Source: Candidatus Poribacteria bacterium (GTDB taxonomy: Bacteria; Poribacteria; WGA-4E; WGA-3G). From it: a DNA stretch of 54,887 bases. Where the stretch lies: assembly GCA_028820845.1 (NCBI GenBank), contig JAPPII010000007.1, positions 1 to 54,887 on the forward strand, read 5' to 3'. The notes below the pieces were generated by a model that was not told the DNA's origin, did not search any database, and saw only the letters and a list, made by a program, of their open reading frames with translations. The position numbers and the translations under genes are program-made. Every line of letters starts with the position of its first letter. Positions within the stretch are counted from its first letter, which is position 1. Below are positions 2,789 to 17,180 of this stretch, piece by piece.

Positions 2789-5700
2789 ATGCGACACATC
2801 AAACCCATCGTTTGGCTCATCTTTATCTTTTCCGGTGCCAGCGGACTTATCTATCAAGTCATCTGGATGCGGCAACTCACGCTCATTTTCGGAAGTACCG
2901 TCTTCGCAACCAGCACCGTCCTAACAGCATTTATGGCGGGACTCGCGCTCGGCAGTTTCTACTTCGGTCGAAAAATTGACGAAAGCGATCAGTCTCCATT
3001 GCGGATTTACGCCCTGTTGGAAGCCGGTATCGGTGCCTTCTGCCTCGTGTGGCCACTGATTTTATCGGTGCTCGGTGCCTTGTATGTGCTAATCCATCGC
3101 AACGTCACATCCGAATTCTATACGCTTTCGTTGATCCGGTTCGTATTGACCTGCGGAGTGATATTGATTCCTTCAACACTGATGGGCGGCACACTCCCCG
3201 TGCTAACCCGATTCTTTGTAAAAAGATTGGAACAACTCGGCACGAACATCGGGGTGCTGTATGCGCTCAACACATTCGGTGCTGTCATCGGAACCGTAGC
3301 AGCAGGCTTTTTCCTACTCGAAGCGTTCGGGATCCGATGGACACTCGGTATCGGTATCGCCATTAATTTCGCCGTAGCAGCGATTGCGTTGGTGTTGACG
3401 CAGCGAGTGTCAGGAACAGAAGATATCAGCAGTCAGCAATCAGCAATCAGCAATCAGCCAGAAGGCCTTGTGTCAGAAAGTAGGACGCAACTGCCACACG
3501 CTGAAAGTGAGCGTAGCGAACGCCCTAACAGCCATTTGGTATTATGGGCAATAGGTATCTCAGGGTTCTGTGCTTTGGCTTACGAAGTGCTCTGGACGCG
3601 TATTATGGTCTTCTTCCTCGGCAGTACGACCTATGCGTTTGCGACAATGCTGGCAGCATTTCTCTTCGGCATTGCACTTGGAAGTATCGTGCTTGCACGT
3701 TGGGTAGACCGGATGAAACAGCCTATCGCTGTTTTCGGGGTCGTTCAGCTCGGCATCGGACTTTTCGCACTTATCCTCATGCCGGCGTTTGAGGAGTTGT
3801 ACGGGATGACGCGTGCCTTCCAGTCTACCTTTGGTAGCAGCAGATTTTGGGCGTTCTTCTCCTGTTTCCTTGTGATGTGTCTTCCGACCTTCTTGATGGG
3901 TGCGAGTTTTCCGCTTGTGACGAAAATCTACACCGGCAGCGAACGTCAACTCGGTAGAAGCATCGGCAATGTCTACGCCGTTAATACAGTTGGAAGCATT
4001 TTCGGCGCATTTAGTGCTGGATTTATCCTGATTCCGCTTTTGGGTATCCGACCGAGTATCGTGCTAATGGTTGCGTTGAACACAGGTATCGGGTGTCTCC
4101 TTGTACTAAAAAGCGGGCAACGGACGAAAACCAGCGGCGCATTGCTACAGGGGGTAAGCATAGGCATGCCGATTCTCAACGCTGGGTTGGCTGTCATTCT
4201 GCTGCTTACGCTGAATCAACCGCTTTTCCTCAAGAGCGCGATTTTCAAGACGCAGCGTCCGGGCGATACACTCGTCGATTACAATGAGGAAGTGGACGCA
4301 ACGGTAACGACGCTGAAAGACGATGAAGGTGTCTACCGTCTCTATGTGGATACAAATCAGGCAGCAGATGCCTCGCGGTGGGACTCGCCATCGCACCGTG
4401 TTATTGCACATCTGCCGCTGTTATTGCATCCACGTCCGAAACGCGCACTTGTCGTCGGATTCGGTATGGGGCTAACTTCCTACTCAATCACACAACACGG
4501 GGTCCGAGTTGACGCGATAGAACTTTCCAAAGGCGTGATTTCGGCGGCACAGGAGCATTTCACACACGTCAATGGAAACGTGTTTGAAAGCCCACTGTTT
4601 GATTATAAAATCAACGATGGACGCAATCATATCCTAATGACAAAAACGAAATACGATATGATTTCCACAGGGATCATCCATCCGCTGGTCAGCGCAGGGA
4701 GTTCCAATATCTACACCGCCGACTTCTACCGCTTGTGCCGCCGCATTTTGAGCGAAGACGGCATCATGTGTCAGTGGGTGCCGCTCCATCGCTTGCCTGA
4801 GACACACTATAAGATGATTGTCCGTACCTTCGTTGAGGTGTTTCCACATACGACGCTCTGGTATAAATATACGCCTGACTTCGTAATCCTCATCGGCACA
4901 CAGGAACCCCTGCAGATTGATTACAAAAACTTTATCGCACGCGCACAGATAGCGAGTATAAGTGAAGGACTTGCTGCCGATGACTTAGATGGTCTGTCGC
5001 TACTTGACTCATTTATGATGGGACCGGAGACGGTCCGCAAATACGTAGGCGTTGGACCTGTCCACACAGACAACCGACCCCGACTGGAATTCTTCCGCGG
5101 GGCTGACCTCGCCGACACGACGACACAGAACGTCAAAGGGATGGTTGAGTATCGTGAACGCGTTCTCCCATACCTCACGAACTACGGTTCAACGCTCGCC
5201 GAGATGAAGAGCGTTAGAGAAAAACTTGATACCTACTTTAGAGCCACACACAGATTAATCCGTGGACAGATCGCTTATGCGAGCGCACAGTACCAAGATG
5301 CCGCAGAACTCATGAACCAAGCGGTCGAACTTAATCCGCTTGATGAAACAATTCGTTATAACTTTGGAGTCGTTTCAGGCTTAATTCGCGAAGGTGAACA
5401 GGAAGAGCTCCGGCAGATTGAACAACAAGTCCAGCAGGCAATGGCACAGAATCCTGACGACCTACAGGGACACCTCTATTTAGCGACTGTGTATGAAATG
5501 CAGGGTGAACTCGGAAAAGCGACAAGAGAACTTGAGGAATTTCTCAGAGGCGATCCAAGCAGATCCGATGTCTATTTACTCTTGGGTCCCTTATATGAAC
5601 GCCAAGAACGTTATAGAGAGGCACTCCGCACCTACGAACGGTTGGAACAGCAAGAACCTCGTTTGCCTGCGCCTATTTTTGCCGCAATGGCGCAGCTTCA

Positions 5701-5962
5701 CTTGCAGTTGGGAAATTTAGATGAATCCGAAAAATATGCAAAGAAAGGTATCGCTGTAGATGCCAGTTCATGGCGTTCCTACCTTACCCTCGGAAACGTT
5801 TACGCAGCGATGGACCAACCGGAAAAACAGATTGAAAATTACAATAACGCTTTGAGAGCACTCGATAAAAAAATTCTGAACGCTCCAGAGCCTGATGCGC
5901 TAAAGAGTGCTAAACAACAGATTCAAAATGAACTTGAACAACTAAAAACTGAAAATCACTAA
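2789..5962 (+). CDS. Fused multi-spanning membrane protein with spermidine-synthase-like domain and C-terminal TPRs
   Basis: The protein has 1057 residues. Residues 1-205 and about 250-480 are two MFS-like hydrophobic halves with about 12 membrane segments in all. Residues about 500-740 are a spermine/spermidine-synthase-like Rossmann domain: a glycine-rich ALVVGFGMGLTSY, an acidic 'IELS', and the ADFYRLCRRIL segment of the family. The place of the usual catalytic 'D(A/E)P' region reads YDMISTGII, so true aminopropyl transfer is doubtful. The tail from about 830 to 1050 holds tandem TPR-type helices. Similar fusions are common in Planctomycetes and related phyla and lack an assigned substrate. 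Between the two membrane halves (about 212-247) lies a low-complexity linker encoded by an intergenic-type repeat. No clear ribosome-binding site precedes the ATG. The gap to the upstream gene is 43 bases. Confidence 0.8.
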   Translation: MRHIKPIVWLIFIFSGASGLIYQVIWMRQLTLIFGSTVFATSTVLTAFMAGLALGSFYFGRKIDESDQSPLRIYALLEAGIGAFCLVWPLILSVLGALYVLIHRNVTSEFYTLSLIRFVLTCGVILIPSTLMGGTLPVLTRFFVKRLEQLGTNIGVLYALNTFGAVIGTVAAGFFLLEAFGIRWTLGIGIAINFAVAAIALVLTQRVSGTEDISSQQSAISNQPEGLVSESRTQLPHAESERSERPNSHLVLWAIGISGFCALAYEVLWTRIMVFFLGSTTYAFATMLAAFLFGIALGSIVLARWVDRMKQPIAVFGVVQLGIGLFALILMPAFEELYGMTRAFQSTFGSSRFWAFFSCFLVMCLPTFLMGASFPLVTKIYTGSERQLGRSIGNVYAVNTVGSIFGAFSAGFILIPLLGIRPSIVLMVALNTGIGCLLVLKSGQRTKTSGALLQGVSIGMPILNAGLAVILLLTLNQPLFLKSAIFKTQRPGDTLVDYNEEVDATVTTLKDDEGVYRLYVDTNQAADASRWDSPSHRVIAHLPLLLHPRPKRALVVGFGMGLTSYSITQHGVRVDAIELSKGVISAAQEHFTHVNGNVFESPLFDYKINDGRNHILMTKTKYDMISTGIIHPLVSAGSSNIYTADFYRLCRRILSEDGIMCQWVPLHRLPETHYKMIVRTFVEVFPHTTLWYKYTPDFVILIGTQEPLQIDYKNFIARAQIASISEGLAADDLDGLSLLDSFMMGPETVRKYVGVGPVHTDNRPRLEFFRGADLADTTTQNVKGMVEYRERVLPYLTNYGSTLAEMKSVREKLDTYFRATHRLIRGQIAYASAQYQDAAELMNQAVELNPLDETIRYNFGVVSGLIREGEQEELRQIEQQVQQAMAQNPDDLQGHLYLATVYEMQGELGKATRELEEFLRGDPSRSDVYLLLGPLYERQERYREALRTYERLEQQEPRLPAPIFAAMAQLHLQLGNLDESEKYAKKGIAVDASSWRSYLTLGNVYAAMDQPEKQIENYNNALRALDKKILNAPEPDALKSAKQQIQNELEQLKTENH
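3425..3533. repeat. Interspersed repeat inside a coding sequence
   Basis: Bases 3425-3459 are tandem CAATCAG/CAGTCAG units. Bases 3502-3522 are identical over 21 bases to 8266-8286, an intergenic repeat upstream of the Uma2 gene. The element stays in frame and encodes a Ser/Gln/Asn-rich loop between the two membrane halves of the host protein. Confidence 0.6.
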
Positions 5963-5976
5963 GATAGGAGGAATAG

Positions 5977-6079
5977 TTATTGGTTACCGGCTATCAGTTA
6001 TCGGTAACTTGCTTGTGGCAGCCCGTATGTTGTTTGCTACCACACGTTTTAACTGCTAACTGCTAACTACTAACTACCA
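5977..6079. repeat. Imperfect inverted repeat of CAGTTATC/GCTAACT units
   Basis: The left arm, near 5980-6007, contains CTATCAGTTATCGGTAA. The right arm, near 6047-6079, is AACTGCTAACTGCTAACTAC and continues. Its reverse complement matches the left arm imperfectly. It fills the gap between the TPR fusion gene and aspS. It has the same style as the elements at 8249-8304 and 17049-17180. Confidence 0.55.
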
Positions 6080-6089
6080 TAGACACATC

Positions 6090-8111
6090 ATGTCCCAAGA
6101 ACCTTCTTTAAAACGAACCCACTATTGCGGTGACCTACGTTTAGCAGACACGGGTACGCAAGTGAGTCTTAATGGCTGGGTTAAACGCCGTCGAGACCAC
6201 GGTGGGGTCATCTTCGTAGATCTACGCGACAGAACGGGTATCACACAAGTCGTCTTTGACCCGCAAATTGACGAAAAAGCACATGCTATCGCTGATGCGG
6301 TCAGAAGCGAATATGTTTTGCATGTCAGCGGCACCGTCCGTGAGCGCGAGCCGGGTGAACTCCTCTTCCACACAGATGGTACTTACCAAACAGAACTTGC
6401 CGATGGCAATCTGTCCCCAGCGTTCCGGGCGTTGTTCTCGGATGCTGATCCGAAATACACCCTTTCCGATGACATTGAAGTCTCAACACGAGAACCCAGT
6501 GTGCGCTGGCTGCTTACCGATACTGAAAATAATCGGACATATCACATCGCCAGTGAAGATATAGCGGGAGAAAACGGTATTAGCATTTATCAAGGCACTG
6601 TCAATCCTGAGCTTGACACAGGTGAGATCGAGCTCGCTGTTGACACTCTCAGCGTCTTGAATACCGCCAAAACACCGCCGTTCCCGGTTGAAGACGAGAT
6701 TGACGTGGCGGAAGACATTCGGATGCGGTATCGCTTCATCGATTTACGCCGTCCTGAGATGCAAGAGACGTTGGCGATGCGGCATAAAGCGGCACTCGCT
6801 GCGCGTAACTATATGAACGAACAGGGGTTCCTCGAAATCGAAACGCCTATCTTGATGAACAGTACGCCTGAGGGCGCGCGCGATGTCCTTGTTCCGAGTC
6901 GTCATTATCCGGGTAGATTCTATGCCCTCCCGCAATCGCCACAACAGTTCAAGCAGATTCTCATGATGAGTGGTGTTGATCGGTATTTTCAAATCGCGCG
7001 ATGCTTCCGTGATGAGGACACCCGAGCTGATCGGCAGCTGGAGTTCACGCAACTTGACCTTGAGATGTCATTCGCAGATGTAGACGATGTACTTGAGGTA
7101 ACCGAAGGGCTGATGAAACGCATCTTTGAGGACGCTGGGAATATCCCTGTCGAAATCCCGTTCCTACGGCTCCCCTACCACGAATCAATAGCACGCTTCG
7201 GAAATGACAAACCCGATACGCGGTTCGGTATGGAACTAACGGATGTCTCGGATGTCATGGCTGACTGTGATTTTCAGGTATTCACACGAACTTTGGAAAC
7301 AGGTGGACAGGTCAAAGCGATTGCTGCGCCGGGCGGGGCAGACTTCTCTCGAAAAGACATCGACGATCTAACAAAGTTTGTCGCTATCTACCGAGCGAAA
7401 GGTTTAGCGTGGGTTAAAGTCACACCAGACGGATTTTCCTCTGGTATCGTTAAGTTTTTCACAACAGAGCAACTGGAAACTGCGCAGGAGCGAACGGGTG
7501 CGAAGCCCGGTGACATCATGTTCTTTGTTGCTGACAAACCGAATATCGTTGCGGATGCGCTGGGTAATCTCCGCCTCCATCTTGGGAAACAGCTTAACCT
7601 TATTGATGAAACTCAATATAACTTCTTGTGGATTGTTGACTACCCGCTCTTTGAATGGAACGAGGAAGAGAATCGCTATGAACCCTTCCACCATTTGTTC
7701 ACTGCATGCACAGAAGCAACTTTACCGTTGTTAGACACGGACCCGGGGAATGTCCAAAGCCAACACTACGATCTCGTGTGTAACGGATATGAAATTTGTA
7801 GCGGGAGCGTCAGAATCCACCAATGGGATGTCCAACAGCAGGTTTTTGAAATTCTGGGGATTACACCCGAAGATGTCGAAAATCGGTTCGGATATTTCAT
7901 AGATGCTCTGGCGTATGGCACACCGCCGCATGCAGGGATCGCCCCCGGTTTAGACCGTATCGTTATGTTGATGCGCAACGAGGAAAACATCCGCGAAGTT
8001 ATCGCATTTCCGAAATCGCAACAAGGACTCTGCCCGCTTACGCACGCACCTTCTGTTGTATCGGATGCGCAGTTAGAGGAGTTGTCCATCCGCGTTGATG
8101 CAGACATCTGA
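6090..8111 (+). CDS. aspS: Aspartyl-tRNA synthetase with an inserted segment
   Basis: This class II synthetase charges tRNA-Asp (and possibly tRNA-Asn). The OB-fold anticodon domain starts at HYCGDLRL and includes NGWVKRRRDHGGVIFVDLRD. The catalytic core has motif 1 (FLEIETPIL with TPEGARD), motif 2 (CFRDEDTRADRQLEFTQLD) and motif 3 (GIAPGLDRIVMLM). All the usual bacterial landmarks, including the GAD-type insertion, are present. The length of 673 exceeds the roughly 590 typical of bacterial AspRS because of about 80 extra residues at about 88-168, inside the OB-fold region between 'SGTVRERE' and 'GTVNPELDTGEIE'. I do not recognise the insert. There is no ribosome-binding site at the ATG, but the N-terminus aligns well with the family. 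The stop is followed by a strong hairpin at 8171-8211. Confidence 0.96.
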   Translation: MSQEPSLKRTHYCGDLRLADTGTQVSLNGWVKRRRDHGGVIFVDLRDRTGITQVVFDPQIDEKAHAIADAVRSEYVLHVSGTVREREPGELLFHTDGTYQTELADGNLSPAFRALFSDADPKYTLSDDIEVSTREPSVRWLLTDTENNRTYHIASEDIAGENGISIYQGTVNPELDTGEIELAVDTLSVLNTAKTPPFPVEDEIDVAEDIRMRYRFIDLRRPEMQETLAMRHKAALAARNYMNEQGFLEIETPILMNSTPEGARDVLVPSRHYPGRFYALPQSPQQFKQILMMSGVDRYFQIARCFRDEDTRADRQLEFTQLDLEMSFADVDDVLEVTEGLMKRIFEDAGNIPVEIPFLRLPYHESIARFGNDKPDTRFGMELTDVSDVMADCDFQVFTRTLETGGQVKAIAAPGGADFSRKDIDDLTKFVAIYRAKGLAWVKVTPDGFSSGIVKFFTTEQLETAQERTGAKPGDIMFFVADKPNIVADALGNLRLHLGKQLNLIDETQYNFLWIVDYPLFEWNEEENRYEPFHHLFTACTEATLPLLDTDPGNVQSQHYDLVCNGYEICSGSVRIHQWDVQQQVFEILGITPEDVENRFGYFIDALAYGTPPHAGIAPGLDRIVMLMRNEENIREVIAFPKSQQGLCPLTHAPSVVSDAQLEELSIRVDADI

Positions 8112-8170
8112 GGCAACACCGTTATGGGTTGTCGGAAACCATCGCCTGAACTTGGACGCTTATGATTTTA

Positions 8171-8211
8171 AGATGGACCATGATTACCGGACGCCTAATC
8201 ATGGTCCATCT
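8171..8211. terminator. Strong 16 bp hairpin after aspS
   Basis: AGATGGACCATGATTA, a 9-base loop (CCGGACGCC) and TAATCATGGTCCATCT form a perfect 16 bp stem. There is no T-tract, so it may be a mobile palindrome or a processing/terminating structure rather than a classical intrinsic terminator. Confidence 0.55.
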
Positions 8212-8248
8212 GGTAATCTTATAAATCACAGTTCAGACTTCCTCTGAC

Positions 8249-8304
8249 GACCAATAACCAATAGTTGAAAGTGAGCGTAGCGAACGTCCTGATAACTGAT
8301 AACC
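8249..8304. repeat. Interspersed repeat upstream of the Uma2 gene
   Basis: CCAATAACCAATAGT opens the element, the 21-base block at 8266-8286 is identical to 3502-3522, and CCTGATAACTGATAACC closes it. It lies directly upstream of the ribosome-binding site for the gene at 8322. Confidence 0.6.
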
Positions 8305-8306
8305 TC

Positions 8307-8355
8307 TAAGGAGATAGAACGATGGAGAAAAACATAGGTGCTGCCCCAACACTCG
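8307..8355 (+). repeat. Translation-start cassette, copy 1 (Uma2 gene)
   Basis: AAGGAGATAGAACGATG plus the first codons, ending in NIGAAPTL, match 11431-11480 closely. Differences inside the shared NIGAAPTL codons are all synonymous. Confidence 0.6.
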
Positions 8356-15460: not shown

Positions 15461-17047
15461 ATGAATGAAAACGAAAGTAAACCGAAGGTCAGTCTCGGAC
15501 TGCTTTACGGCATCGTCATCGCAATCGTTGCCGGTGCACTCATCGGAGGGTTCGCACCAAATTTGGCAATCCACACAACAATTCTCGGTGAAATATTCTT
15601 GAACCTACTGATGATGATCGTCGTTCCGCTGGTCGTCTTGTCCATGATTGTCGGGATAACCAATTTAGGGGATATCCGCAACATCGGCTCTATCGGTGGG
15701 CGCACTGTCCTCTACTACATGGCAACAACCGCGATTTCCGTTCTCATCGGCATAGTTCTCGTCAACATCATCACACCAGGGAAAGGGTTATCACAAGGTG
15801 AAGAACGACCCGAGCTGACTTACACACTTTCTGGTCCTGAAATGCTCACGCTTGAGATGAGCGGAGAATTTAATCGCACCTATAACAATAAATATGTCAT
15901 CACCCTCGTTGACCAGAACATACAAGGCGAAGTCAAATCGATTTCTGGGACAACAGCCATAGTAGAAGCGTGGCACCCCTTAGCCACGGATGCCCGTTAC
16001 GTTACAACAGAAGGTGGTGAACGCCTGTTATTCGTTGATGGACGGCTTGTAACAATAGAACCCCGAAATACCGGGACAGGCATTAACATCAGTTTGCCGA
16101 TCGCTACCAGAGTCTCCGGCAAAATGGAACGGACTATGGGCAGCACTATCAAAGAGGTATTCCTCGGCAACGAAGAAACCGGCAAAGAAGGGATGATACC
16201 TTCAAACGTCTTCAAGGCAATGGTACATACCGATATCCTGCCGCTCATCTTTTTCTCGCTCCTCATCGGTGCCGCCCTGTCTACGCTCGGTGAATTTGGC
16301 AAACCTATCATCACTGTGATTTCGGGACTCAATGAAGCCGTCATGAAGCTCGTCCACTGGATAATGTATGTTGCACCGTTCGGCATTTTCGGCTTAATTG
16401 CCGGCAGGATTGGTGAAGCAAAGGGATTCGCAGGTTTCTGGCCCGAACTCGTCGCCGTGAGTAAGTACAGTGCCACAGTCGTACTTGGACTCGGCGTACA
16501 CGGTATTATCGTTTTGCCCCTGCTCTTGCTGCTGCTCGGACGTAGAAATCCGCTCAACTACTTCAGAGGCATGGCAACAGCCTTACTAAACGCTTTCTCA
16601 ACAGCGAGTTCCAGCGCATCCCTACCCTTAACAATGGAAGGCGTTGAGAATCAAAACGGAGTCTCCAGACGCACCTCCAGTTTTGTCCTGCCTTTGGGCG
16701 CAACCATTAACATGGACGGCACCGCGCTCTATGAGGCAGTCGCTGTCATGTTTATCGCTCAGGTCTATGCGATTTCTATGGACCCAGCACAACAAATCGT
16801 TGTCGTGCTGACGGCGACCCTCGCGGCTATCGGGGCAGCGGGGATCCCAGAAGCGGGGCTCGTCACCATGGTTATTGTGCTCAGAGCCGTTGACCTCCCC
16901 GTTGAAGGGATAACGCTTATTCTCTCCATTGACTGGCTCCTGGATCGTTTCCGAACCACAATTAACGTTTGGGGCGACAGCATCGGCGCAGGTGTAATTG
17001 AAAGGTATGAATCCGCTGATTCCACCGAAGCACCGGCAACAACGTAG
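15461..17047 (+). CDS. Dicarboxylate/amino acid:cation symporter (DAACS family) with large 3-4 loop insertion
   Basis: A cation-coupled importer of the GltP/DctA type in the inner membrane. The C-terminal signature GATINMDGTALYEAVAVMFIAQ and the serine-rich hairpin AFSTASSSASLPLT mark the transport core. Length is 528 residues against about 420-440 for bacterial relatives. The excess is at about 112-225, between membrane segments 3 and 4, where a hydrophilic, beta-predicted segment (KYVITLVDQNIQGEVKS, RLLFVDGRLVTIE) is inserted before IPSNVFKAMVHTDILPLIF. The insert is probably extracytoplasmic, by analogy with GltPh topology. The ATG at 15461 follows AGGAGG. Gap 15332-15460 contains short GGAAGGCT repeats (about 15363-15385) and nothing else I recognise. 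Substrate (glutamate, aspartate, succinate) cannot be told. Confidence 0.9.
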   Translation: MNENESKPKVSLGLLYGIVIAIVAGALIGGFAPNLAIHTTILGEIFLNLLMMIVVPLVVLSMIVGITNLGDIRNIGSIGGRTVLYYMATTAISVLIGIVLVNIITPGKGLSQGEERPELTYTLSGPEMLTLEMSGEFNRTYNNKYVITLVDQNIQGEVKSISGTTAIVEAWHPLATDARYVTTEGGERLLFVDGRLVTIEPRNTGTGINISLPIATRVSGKMERTMGSTIKEVFLGNEETGKEGMIPSNVFKAMVHTDILPLIFFSLLIGAALSTLGEFGKPIITVISGLNEAVMKLVHWIMYVAPFGIFGLIAGRIGEAKGFAGFWPELVAVSKYSATVVLGLGVHGIIVLPLLLLLLGRRNPLNYFRGMATALLNAFSTASSSASLPLTMEGVENQNGVSRRTSSFVLPLGATINMDGTALYEAVAVMFIAQVYAISMDPAQQIVVVLTATLAAIGAAGIPEAGLVTMVIVLRAVDLPVEGITLILSIDWLLDRFRTTINVWGDSIGAGVIERYESADSTEAPATT

Positions 17048-17048
17048 C

Positions 17049-17180
17049 TATTGGTAATCAGTTATCGGTTTTCAGTGAAAGAGGAACTCTGTAACAATTC
17101 ATAGCCTCTGGGGACTCCAAACTTGAGTAGATTGTTACAAAAACACCTCTTAACTGACAACTGATAACTGACAACTAATC
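17049..17180. repeat. 132 bp inverted-repeat element
   Basis: The arms pair over several blocks. Bases 17051-17076 (GGTAATCAGTTATCGG and on) face 17152-17180 (ACTGACAACTGATAACTGAC and on). AAGAGG near 17079-17084 faces CCTCTT near 17146-17151. GTAACAAT at 17091-17098 faces ATTGTTAC at 17131-17138. This nested pairing makes one long imperfect hairpin filling the whole gap between two transporter genes, with the layout of a small non-autonomous mobile element or structured repeat. No coding sequence is visible in it. Confidence 0.65.

Follow-up and report, generated by a model that had tools for sequence, protein, structure and literature searches.

A read-through copy of a palindromic heptad repeat as the probable source of an interdomain linker in sponge-associated Poribacteria

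The stretch of DNA examined here, referred to as the window, comprises 54,887 nucleotides of a Candidatus Poribacteria bacterium (contig JAPPII010000007.1 of assembly GCA_028820845.1), a member of a sponge-associated genus, and our interest lies in a 1057-residue open reading frame (ORF) in which a linker made of repeat sequence separates two membrane halves. We consider it likely that this linker is one copy of a family of small palindromic repeats belonging to one Poribacteria genus, and that read-through copies of the family replace interdomain linkers, which then turn over rapidly. The family itself is probably non-autonomous and mobile.

An earlier note on this DNA had claimed that a 21-base block identical to an intergenic repeat, together with CAATCAG tandem units, codes for the linker between the two membrane halves of the protein, and each of these observations was confirmed. 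The 21-mer TGAAAGTGAGCGTAGCGAACG occurs exactly at 3502-3522 and at 8266-8286 (0 in 100 dinucleotide shuffles), its match widens to 25 nt at 96%, the heptamer array occupies 3425-3458 with 4.9 copies, and the ORF was identified as an NF037959 MFS_SpdSyn protein. While the presence of a repeat was upheld, its size was not, as the unit is larger and extends over about 3423-3533, where it consists of a left arm, a core and a right arm (Table 1). A 20-mer search with at most one mismatch located six places in the genome; right-arm heptads surround all four that lie outside the window, and three of these also carry the left TCAG arm. The 21-mer is only a recent variant of the right arm, as G012, whose protein is 95% identical, has plain heptads in its place. 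As a separate observation, the 21-mer (window 3502-3522; L055, L062, L078, L083 and others) represents one form of the cassette CTGAAAG-[hairpin]-CCGTACTGA, with differing stems (GGTTTTC/GAAAACC, GGTTGC/GCAACC, GGGGC/GCCCC) and a loop that is mostly GNA, often as GCGNAGC. GCGNAGC is an unusually stable DNA mini-hairpin, and its frequent occurrence in the cassette hints at a single-stranded DNA step.

Judged by its arms and core, the linker appears to be one copy of a family whose intergenic copies are palindromic. Copies of the family, typically of about 70-140 nt, are built from a TCAG-heptad arm, a variable core and a CTGA-heptad arm, the core of paired-array elements being either TTGTGG...CCACAACG or AAAGAGG...CCTCTTTAA. 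A census of 820 kb (14% of the genome) detected 38 heptad arrays of at least 3 units, as against 1-2 in each of five shuffles, and 33 of the 38 are intergenic, although open frames cover 89% of the sample. Spacing of CTGA and TCAG words peaks at 7 nt (453-kb part of the sample), seven is the commonest tandem period, and tandem TAACTGA-like heptamers are present between genes. Three intergenic copies that were folded gave z scores of -2.6, -3.7 and -6.9, none of them having an open frame. Intergenic copies also differ in presence or kind between the genome of the window (G000) and G012. The gap at 5975-6079 is much shorter in G012 and G023 and holds an arm-like remnant, whereas the same-species assembly G060 keeps this element with one heptad more than G000; the gap matching 17045-17180 contains a different repeat in G012. 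Within the genomes searched, the element is restricted to the genus: a 75-nt DNA probe from the G016 linker matched all 38 genus genomes, and a second peptide gave tblastn matches in 29 of the 38 and in none of 44 genomes from elsewhere in the class. Among the 20-mer matches listed (80 loci of 102 stretches), 45 are Candidatus Poribacteria, and inspection of 18 of the other 35 listed loci revealed comparable arms only at L058, a Chloroflexi metagenome-assembled genome in which the 20-mer is flanked by TCAG/CTGA-type arms resembling those of Poribacteria.

The host gene is present in all 60 related genomes examined, and 35 same-genus orthologues with a complete linker were compared. The linker is repeat-free in 20 of the 35 and of element type in 15; an element-type linker is also found in G060 and in G014, where contig ends split it at the element. 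The repeat-free orthologues thus have a different linker sequence, the opposite of what had been named as refuting the earlier note. Their linker follows the pattern TEADEPxEExQQ...PERxLVLW, is vertically inherited and slowly evolving, and may be taken as ancestral because it is homologous across the genus. Compared with it, the linker in the window is best described as a replacement of an older linker. The in-frame insertion proposed by the earlier note was accordingly right as to frame and wrong as to simple insertion.

On a gene tree built without the linker, the linker state changes at least 10 times and the element types are scattered. Shuffled labels gave a mean of 11.7 changes, and 10 or fewer in 22% of 300 shuffles, so that the observed 10 is hardly fewer, and placement of the element carriers in a single clade was rejected (approximately unbiased test, p-AU 6.15e-5). 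Mantel correlations demonstrated that repeat-free linkers diverge along with the gene (r 0.69) while the correlation is weak for element linkers (r 0.27), and the close relatives G012 and G023, at a gene distance of 0.045, differ wholesale in the linker (distance 0.52). One could suppose that a single old domesticated linker allele was spread between species by homologous recombination, which would fit the similar cores in distant clades (G007, G016 and G014; G009, G023 and G034). In five isolated carriers (G035, G034, G011, G016 and G019), however, the 25 codons on each side are nearest, or tied for nearest, to the repeat-free relative of the species. Exchange was therefore confined to the linker, and the element was gained and swapped in place rather than inherited once or imported with long flanks. 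Since the same element also occurs in many other genes, and its MutL copy in only one of the species compared, an old allele seems unlikely.

The element had also been sought in other coding regions, and it was found in frame in unrelated genes. Thirty loci were fetched from matches of the G016 probe, and 16 of them fall within open frames in the sense orientation, 188-1024 codons long (two being the focal gene), all 16 encoding the same conserved peptide from one frame; the remainder comprise a focal gene truncated at the end of its contig (L206), a locus open on the opposite strand (L228, 333 codons) and 12 non-coding loci. When a composite peptide was searched by tblastn, 80 of its 146 matches fell in frames free of stops over at least 250 aa, 43 contained stops and 23 were short; for the second peptide the corresponding figures are 38, 22 and 5 of 65. 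The genome of the window has in-frame copies in a TamB-like protein, an unassigned 1298-aa protein and MutL, while a PSCyt1/PSD1 protein there carries just an arm. Hosts across the genus include MutL, RNase J, RecD2, BamA-like and TamB-like proteins, diacylglycerol (DAG) kinase, BatA/von Willebrand factor A (VWA) and propeller proteins. A domain-border check of four of these hosts placed each insert between Pfam domains: MutL 375-409 (domains ending at 327 and starting at 446), RNase J 491-527 (419 and 534), RecD2 306-334 (242 and 388) and DAG kinase 138-161 (126 and 168). For MutL, linkers could be extracted from 20 of 22 loci, the anchor having failed in G023 and G035; the element is confined to G000 and G060 and absent from the other 18 linkers, and this site too looks like a replacement and not a clean insertion. 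The DAG kinase linker shows the same swapping as the focal linker across 30 genomes, of which three are element-free, 10 contain a further module and the rest have heptad or GGATGGAAG-type sequence.

Two further in-frame sequences were noted in these linkers. A third in-frame module, coding RNEMEGGSTE, stands beside or inside the heptad element in the 10 DAG kinase linkers mentioned (L327, L328, L330-L333, L339, L340, L345 and L346). A second repeat type (GGATGGAAG...CTTCCATCC) occurs in frame in element-bearing linkers and in intergenic gaps, and was seen at L017, L027, L180 (near 5730), the G012 counterpart of window 17045-17180 and DAG kinase linkers.

A peptide that recurs in a single frame across many proteins, with repeated gains at the same sites, might be expected of a selected functional module, such as a regulatory or binding linker, that was spread by selection instead of being tolerated as a repeat. 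Its hosts, though, share no common function (MutL, RNase J, RecD2, BamA-like proteins, kinases), its cores are freely exchanged, and 20 of 35 orthologues do without it. Usually just one frame of the element is open, which alone is enough to explain the shared peptide, and selection for a module is accordingly quite improbable. The 21 coding copies of one subtype are all read in one frame, and CTGA in the sole heptad able to give an in-frame TGA, replaced by CCGA or CCAA in read-through copies, is present in 0/21 coding and 37/62 non-coding copies (p 3e-7), a contrast that holds partly by definition because copies count as coding when their frame is open. The palindromic fold is kept at the family level, with a median z of -2.75 for the 21 coding copies (12 below -2) and -2.97 for the 62 non-coding copies (p 0.55).

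Plain slippage of heptamers in a low-complexity linker, its likeness to intergenic repeats being convergent, was also considered. Linkers tolerate changes in length, period 7 is as common as stated above, and the additional heptad of G060 is the kind of change that slippage produces. Nevertheless, the linker shares non-heptad cores with other loci, the finding that counts directly against slippage; its opposite arms stand in the right order, its 21-mer is identical to an intergenic one, and the same peptide recurs in unrelated genes, all of which makes slippage alone very unlikely. An assembly or binning artefact is extremely improbable: the repeat does break assemblies, as both G014 contigs (L186 and L185) break off at the linker, in one case within the element, but the same-species assembly G060 agrees in both the linker and the MutL insert, and element linkers are present in genomes of one contig (G010) and three contigs (G018).

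Several results, besides the partly definitional stop contrast, weigh against a mobile palindromic family as the origin of the linker. The focal linker lacks a palindromic or hairpin fold (z -0.5), and other element linkers of the host gene have z scores mostly near 0, with -3.0 in G010 and -1.8 in G016; as coding copies generally fold, the focal linker is read as a decayed copy. Stops lie inside 43 of the 146 and 22 of the 65 peptide matches, and the coding share of the family is overestimated because many coding copies came from queries built on coding copies. Neither of the gene sites compared (focal linker and MutL) shows a clean insertion with a target-site duplication, the older linker being missing. 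A RAYT/IS200-type carrier (RAYT, REP-associated tyrosine transposase; REP, repetitive extragenic palindromic) was tried and rejected: four Y1_Tnp genes were found without convincing matching arms, and this search, limited to Y1_Tnp, detected no flanking heptad arms beyond chance-level pairs at one locus (L204).

Table 1 Features of the repeat family and its host gene in the window
Feature	Position	Strand	Basis
Host ORF, 1057 aa, fused MFS/spermidine synthase with C-terminal tetratricopeptide repeats	2789..5962	+	ORF and domain annotation
Element-derived linker, 111 nt = 37 codons, replacing the repeat-free linker of other species	3423..3533	+	borders from comparison with type-A (repeat-free) orthologues
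Left arm of linker element, TCAG heptads ((A/G)TCAGCA)n	3425..3459	+	tandem-repeat detection, orthologue comparison
Core of linker element (..TTGTGTCAG...CTGCCACACG), akin to intergenic cores TTGTGG...CCACAACG	3460..3501	+	sequence comparison
Right arm of linker element, holding the 21-mer (3502-3522) and CCCTAACAGCC; plain (CAACCAA) heptads in G012	3502..3533	+	
Intergenic element directly after host gene	5975..6079	.	comparison with G012, G023, G060
Intergenic part-element with identical 21-mer, upstream of ORF at 8322	8250..8305	.	exact match
Complete intergenic element, AAAGAGG-type core, z -6.9, no open frame	17045..17180	.	

Elsewhere in the window, an inverted repeat at 8146-8236 (41-nt arms, 76% complementary, 9-nt loop) lies downstream of ORF 6090-8111, whose product we take to be aspartyl-tRNA-synthetase-like, and is possibly a terminator or another repeat.

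A literature search on Poribacteria palindromes, repeats and mobile elements, with little coverage of subscription journals, returned no description of such elements. Among the closest known systems are the Rickettsia palindromic elements (RPEs), described in PMC10969869 as palindromic repeats of about 100-150 bp that stand in frame in unrelated genes, each with a conserved peptide, and that also have non-coding copies. The Poribacteria element likewise lies in frame inside unrelated protein-coding genes, has a conserved peptide read from one frame, and keeps its fold in coding copies at the family level, though not in the focal copy. This likeness is one of mode of working; we claim no common descent and do not apply the name RPE. 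The Poribacteria element differs in phylum, in arms made of heptad arrays, in residing in genomes of 4-7 Mb, in inserts that take the place of linkers and are repeatedly exchanged at a single site, and in the reading of several cores in the same frame. The heptamer of the intergenic Poribacteria repeats is shared by the TAACTGA direct repeats of Beggiatoaceae, Cyanobacteria and Bacteroidetes, which are reported in MacGregor 2015 (PMC4679880), a paper with no mention of Poribacteria, as intergenic arrays whose units all point the same way save for one inverted case, with a few copies inside ORFs, mostly at protein ends, the internal ones being in reverse orientation. The Poribacteria element, in contrast, has paired left and right arms around a core and sits between domains. 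REP palindromes, bacterial interspersed mosaic elements (BIMEs) and miniature inverted-repeat transposable elements (MITEs) such as QMITE (PMC5896051) are short, abundant, mainly intergenic, hairpin-forming and occasionally in frame, and the Poribacteria element shares all of these traits. It differs from them in its heptad arms, no RAYT-like gene with matching ends was found for it, and it is far more used as internal protein sequence than in the isolated QMITE cases.

The earlier idea of a repeat element being turned into protein sequence is thus supported, and can be refined to a two-armed palindrome family for which the event recurs in many species and genes. Under the explanation that we favor, most copies of this family sit between genes, while those able to be read through also lie in genes, nearly always in one frame. 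The copies in genes would persist in disordered interdomain linkers, where they displace the older linker, are presumably translated and would be close to neutral for the host protein. Once repeat sequence is present, fast turnover could follow from renewed insertion, from heptad slippage, and from exchange between copies through ectopic gene conversion or template switching. The comparisons directly show the anatomy of the family, its in-frame copies in unrelated genes, its repeated origin at one site, the exchange confined to the linker and the restriction to the genus within the genomes searched; mobility and the manner of movement are inferred. A more general proposal, which we advance tentatively and hold to be somewhat doubtful, is that the interdomain linkers of the genus form a shared, constantly renewed compartment, in which disordered linkers would be overwritten, through template switching or ectopic conversion, from a genomic pool of palindromes that permit read-through. 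This would happen at matching sites across many species and in many genes, including those of DNA repair and outer-membrane assembly proteins, and would amount to a general linker-replacement system and not to a collection of isolated insertions.

Palindromic elements lying in frame have been described mainly in Rickettsia, a genus with reduced genomes. A Rickettsia-like process is seen here in 4-7 Mb genomes of another phylum, with dozens of sequenced relatives displaying the states before and after. Consequently, the rate at which non-coding repeats become protein, the protein sites that tolerate them and the speed of their turnover are now directly testable, and linkers of this kind are unsuited as phylogenetic markers.
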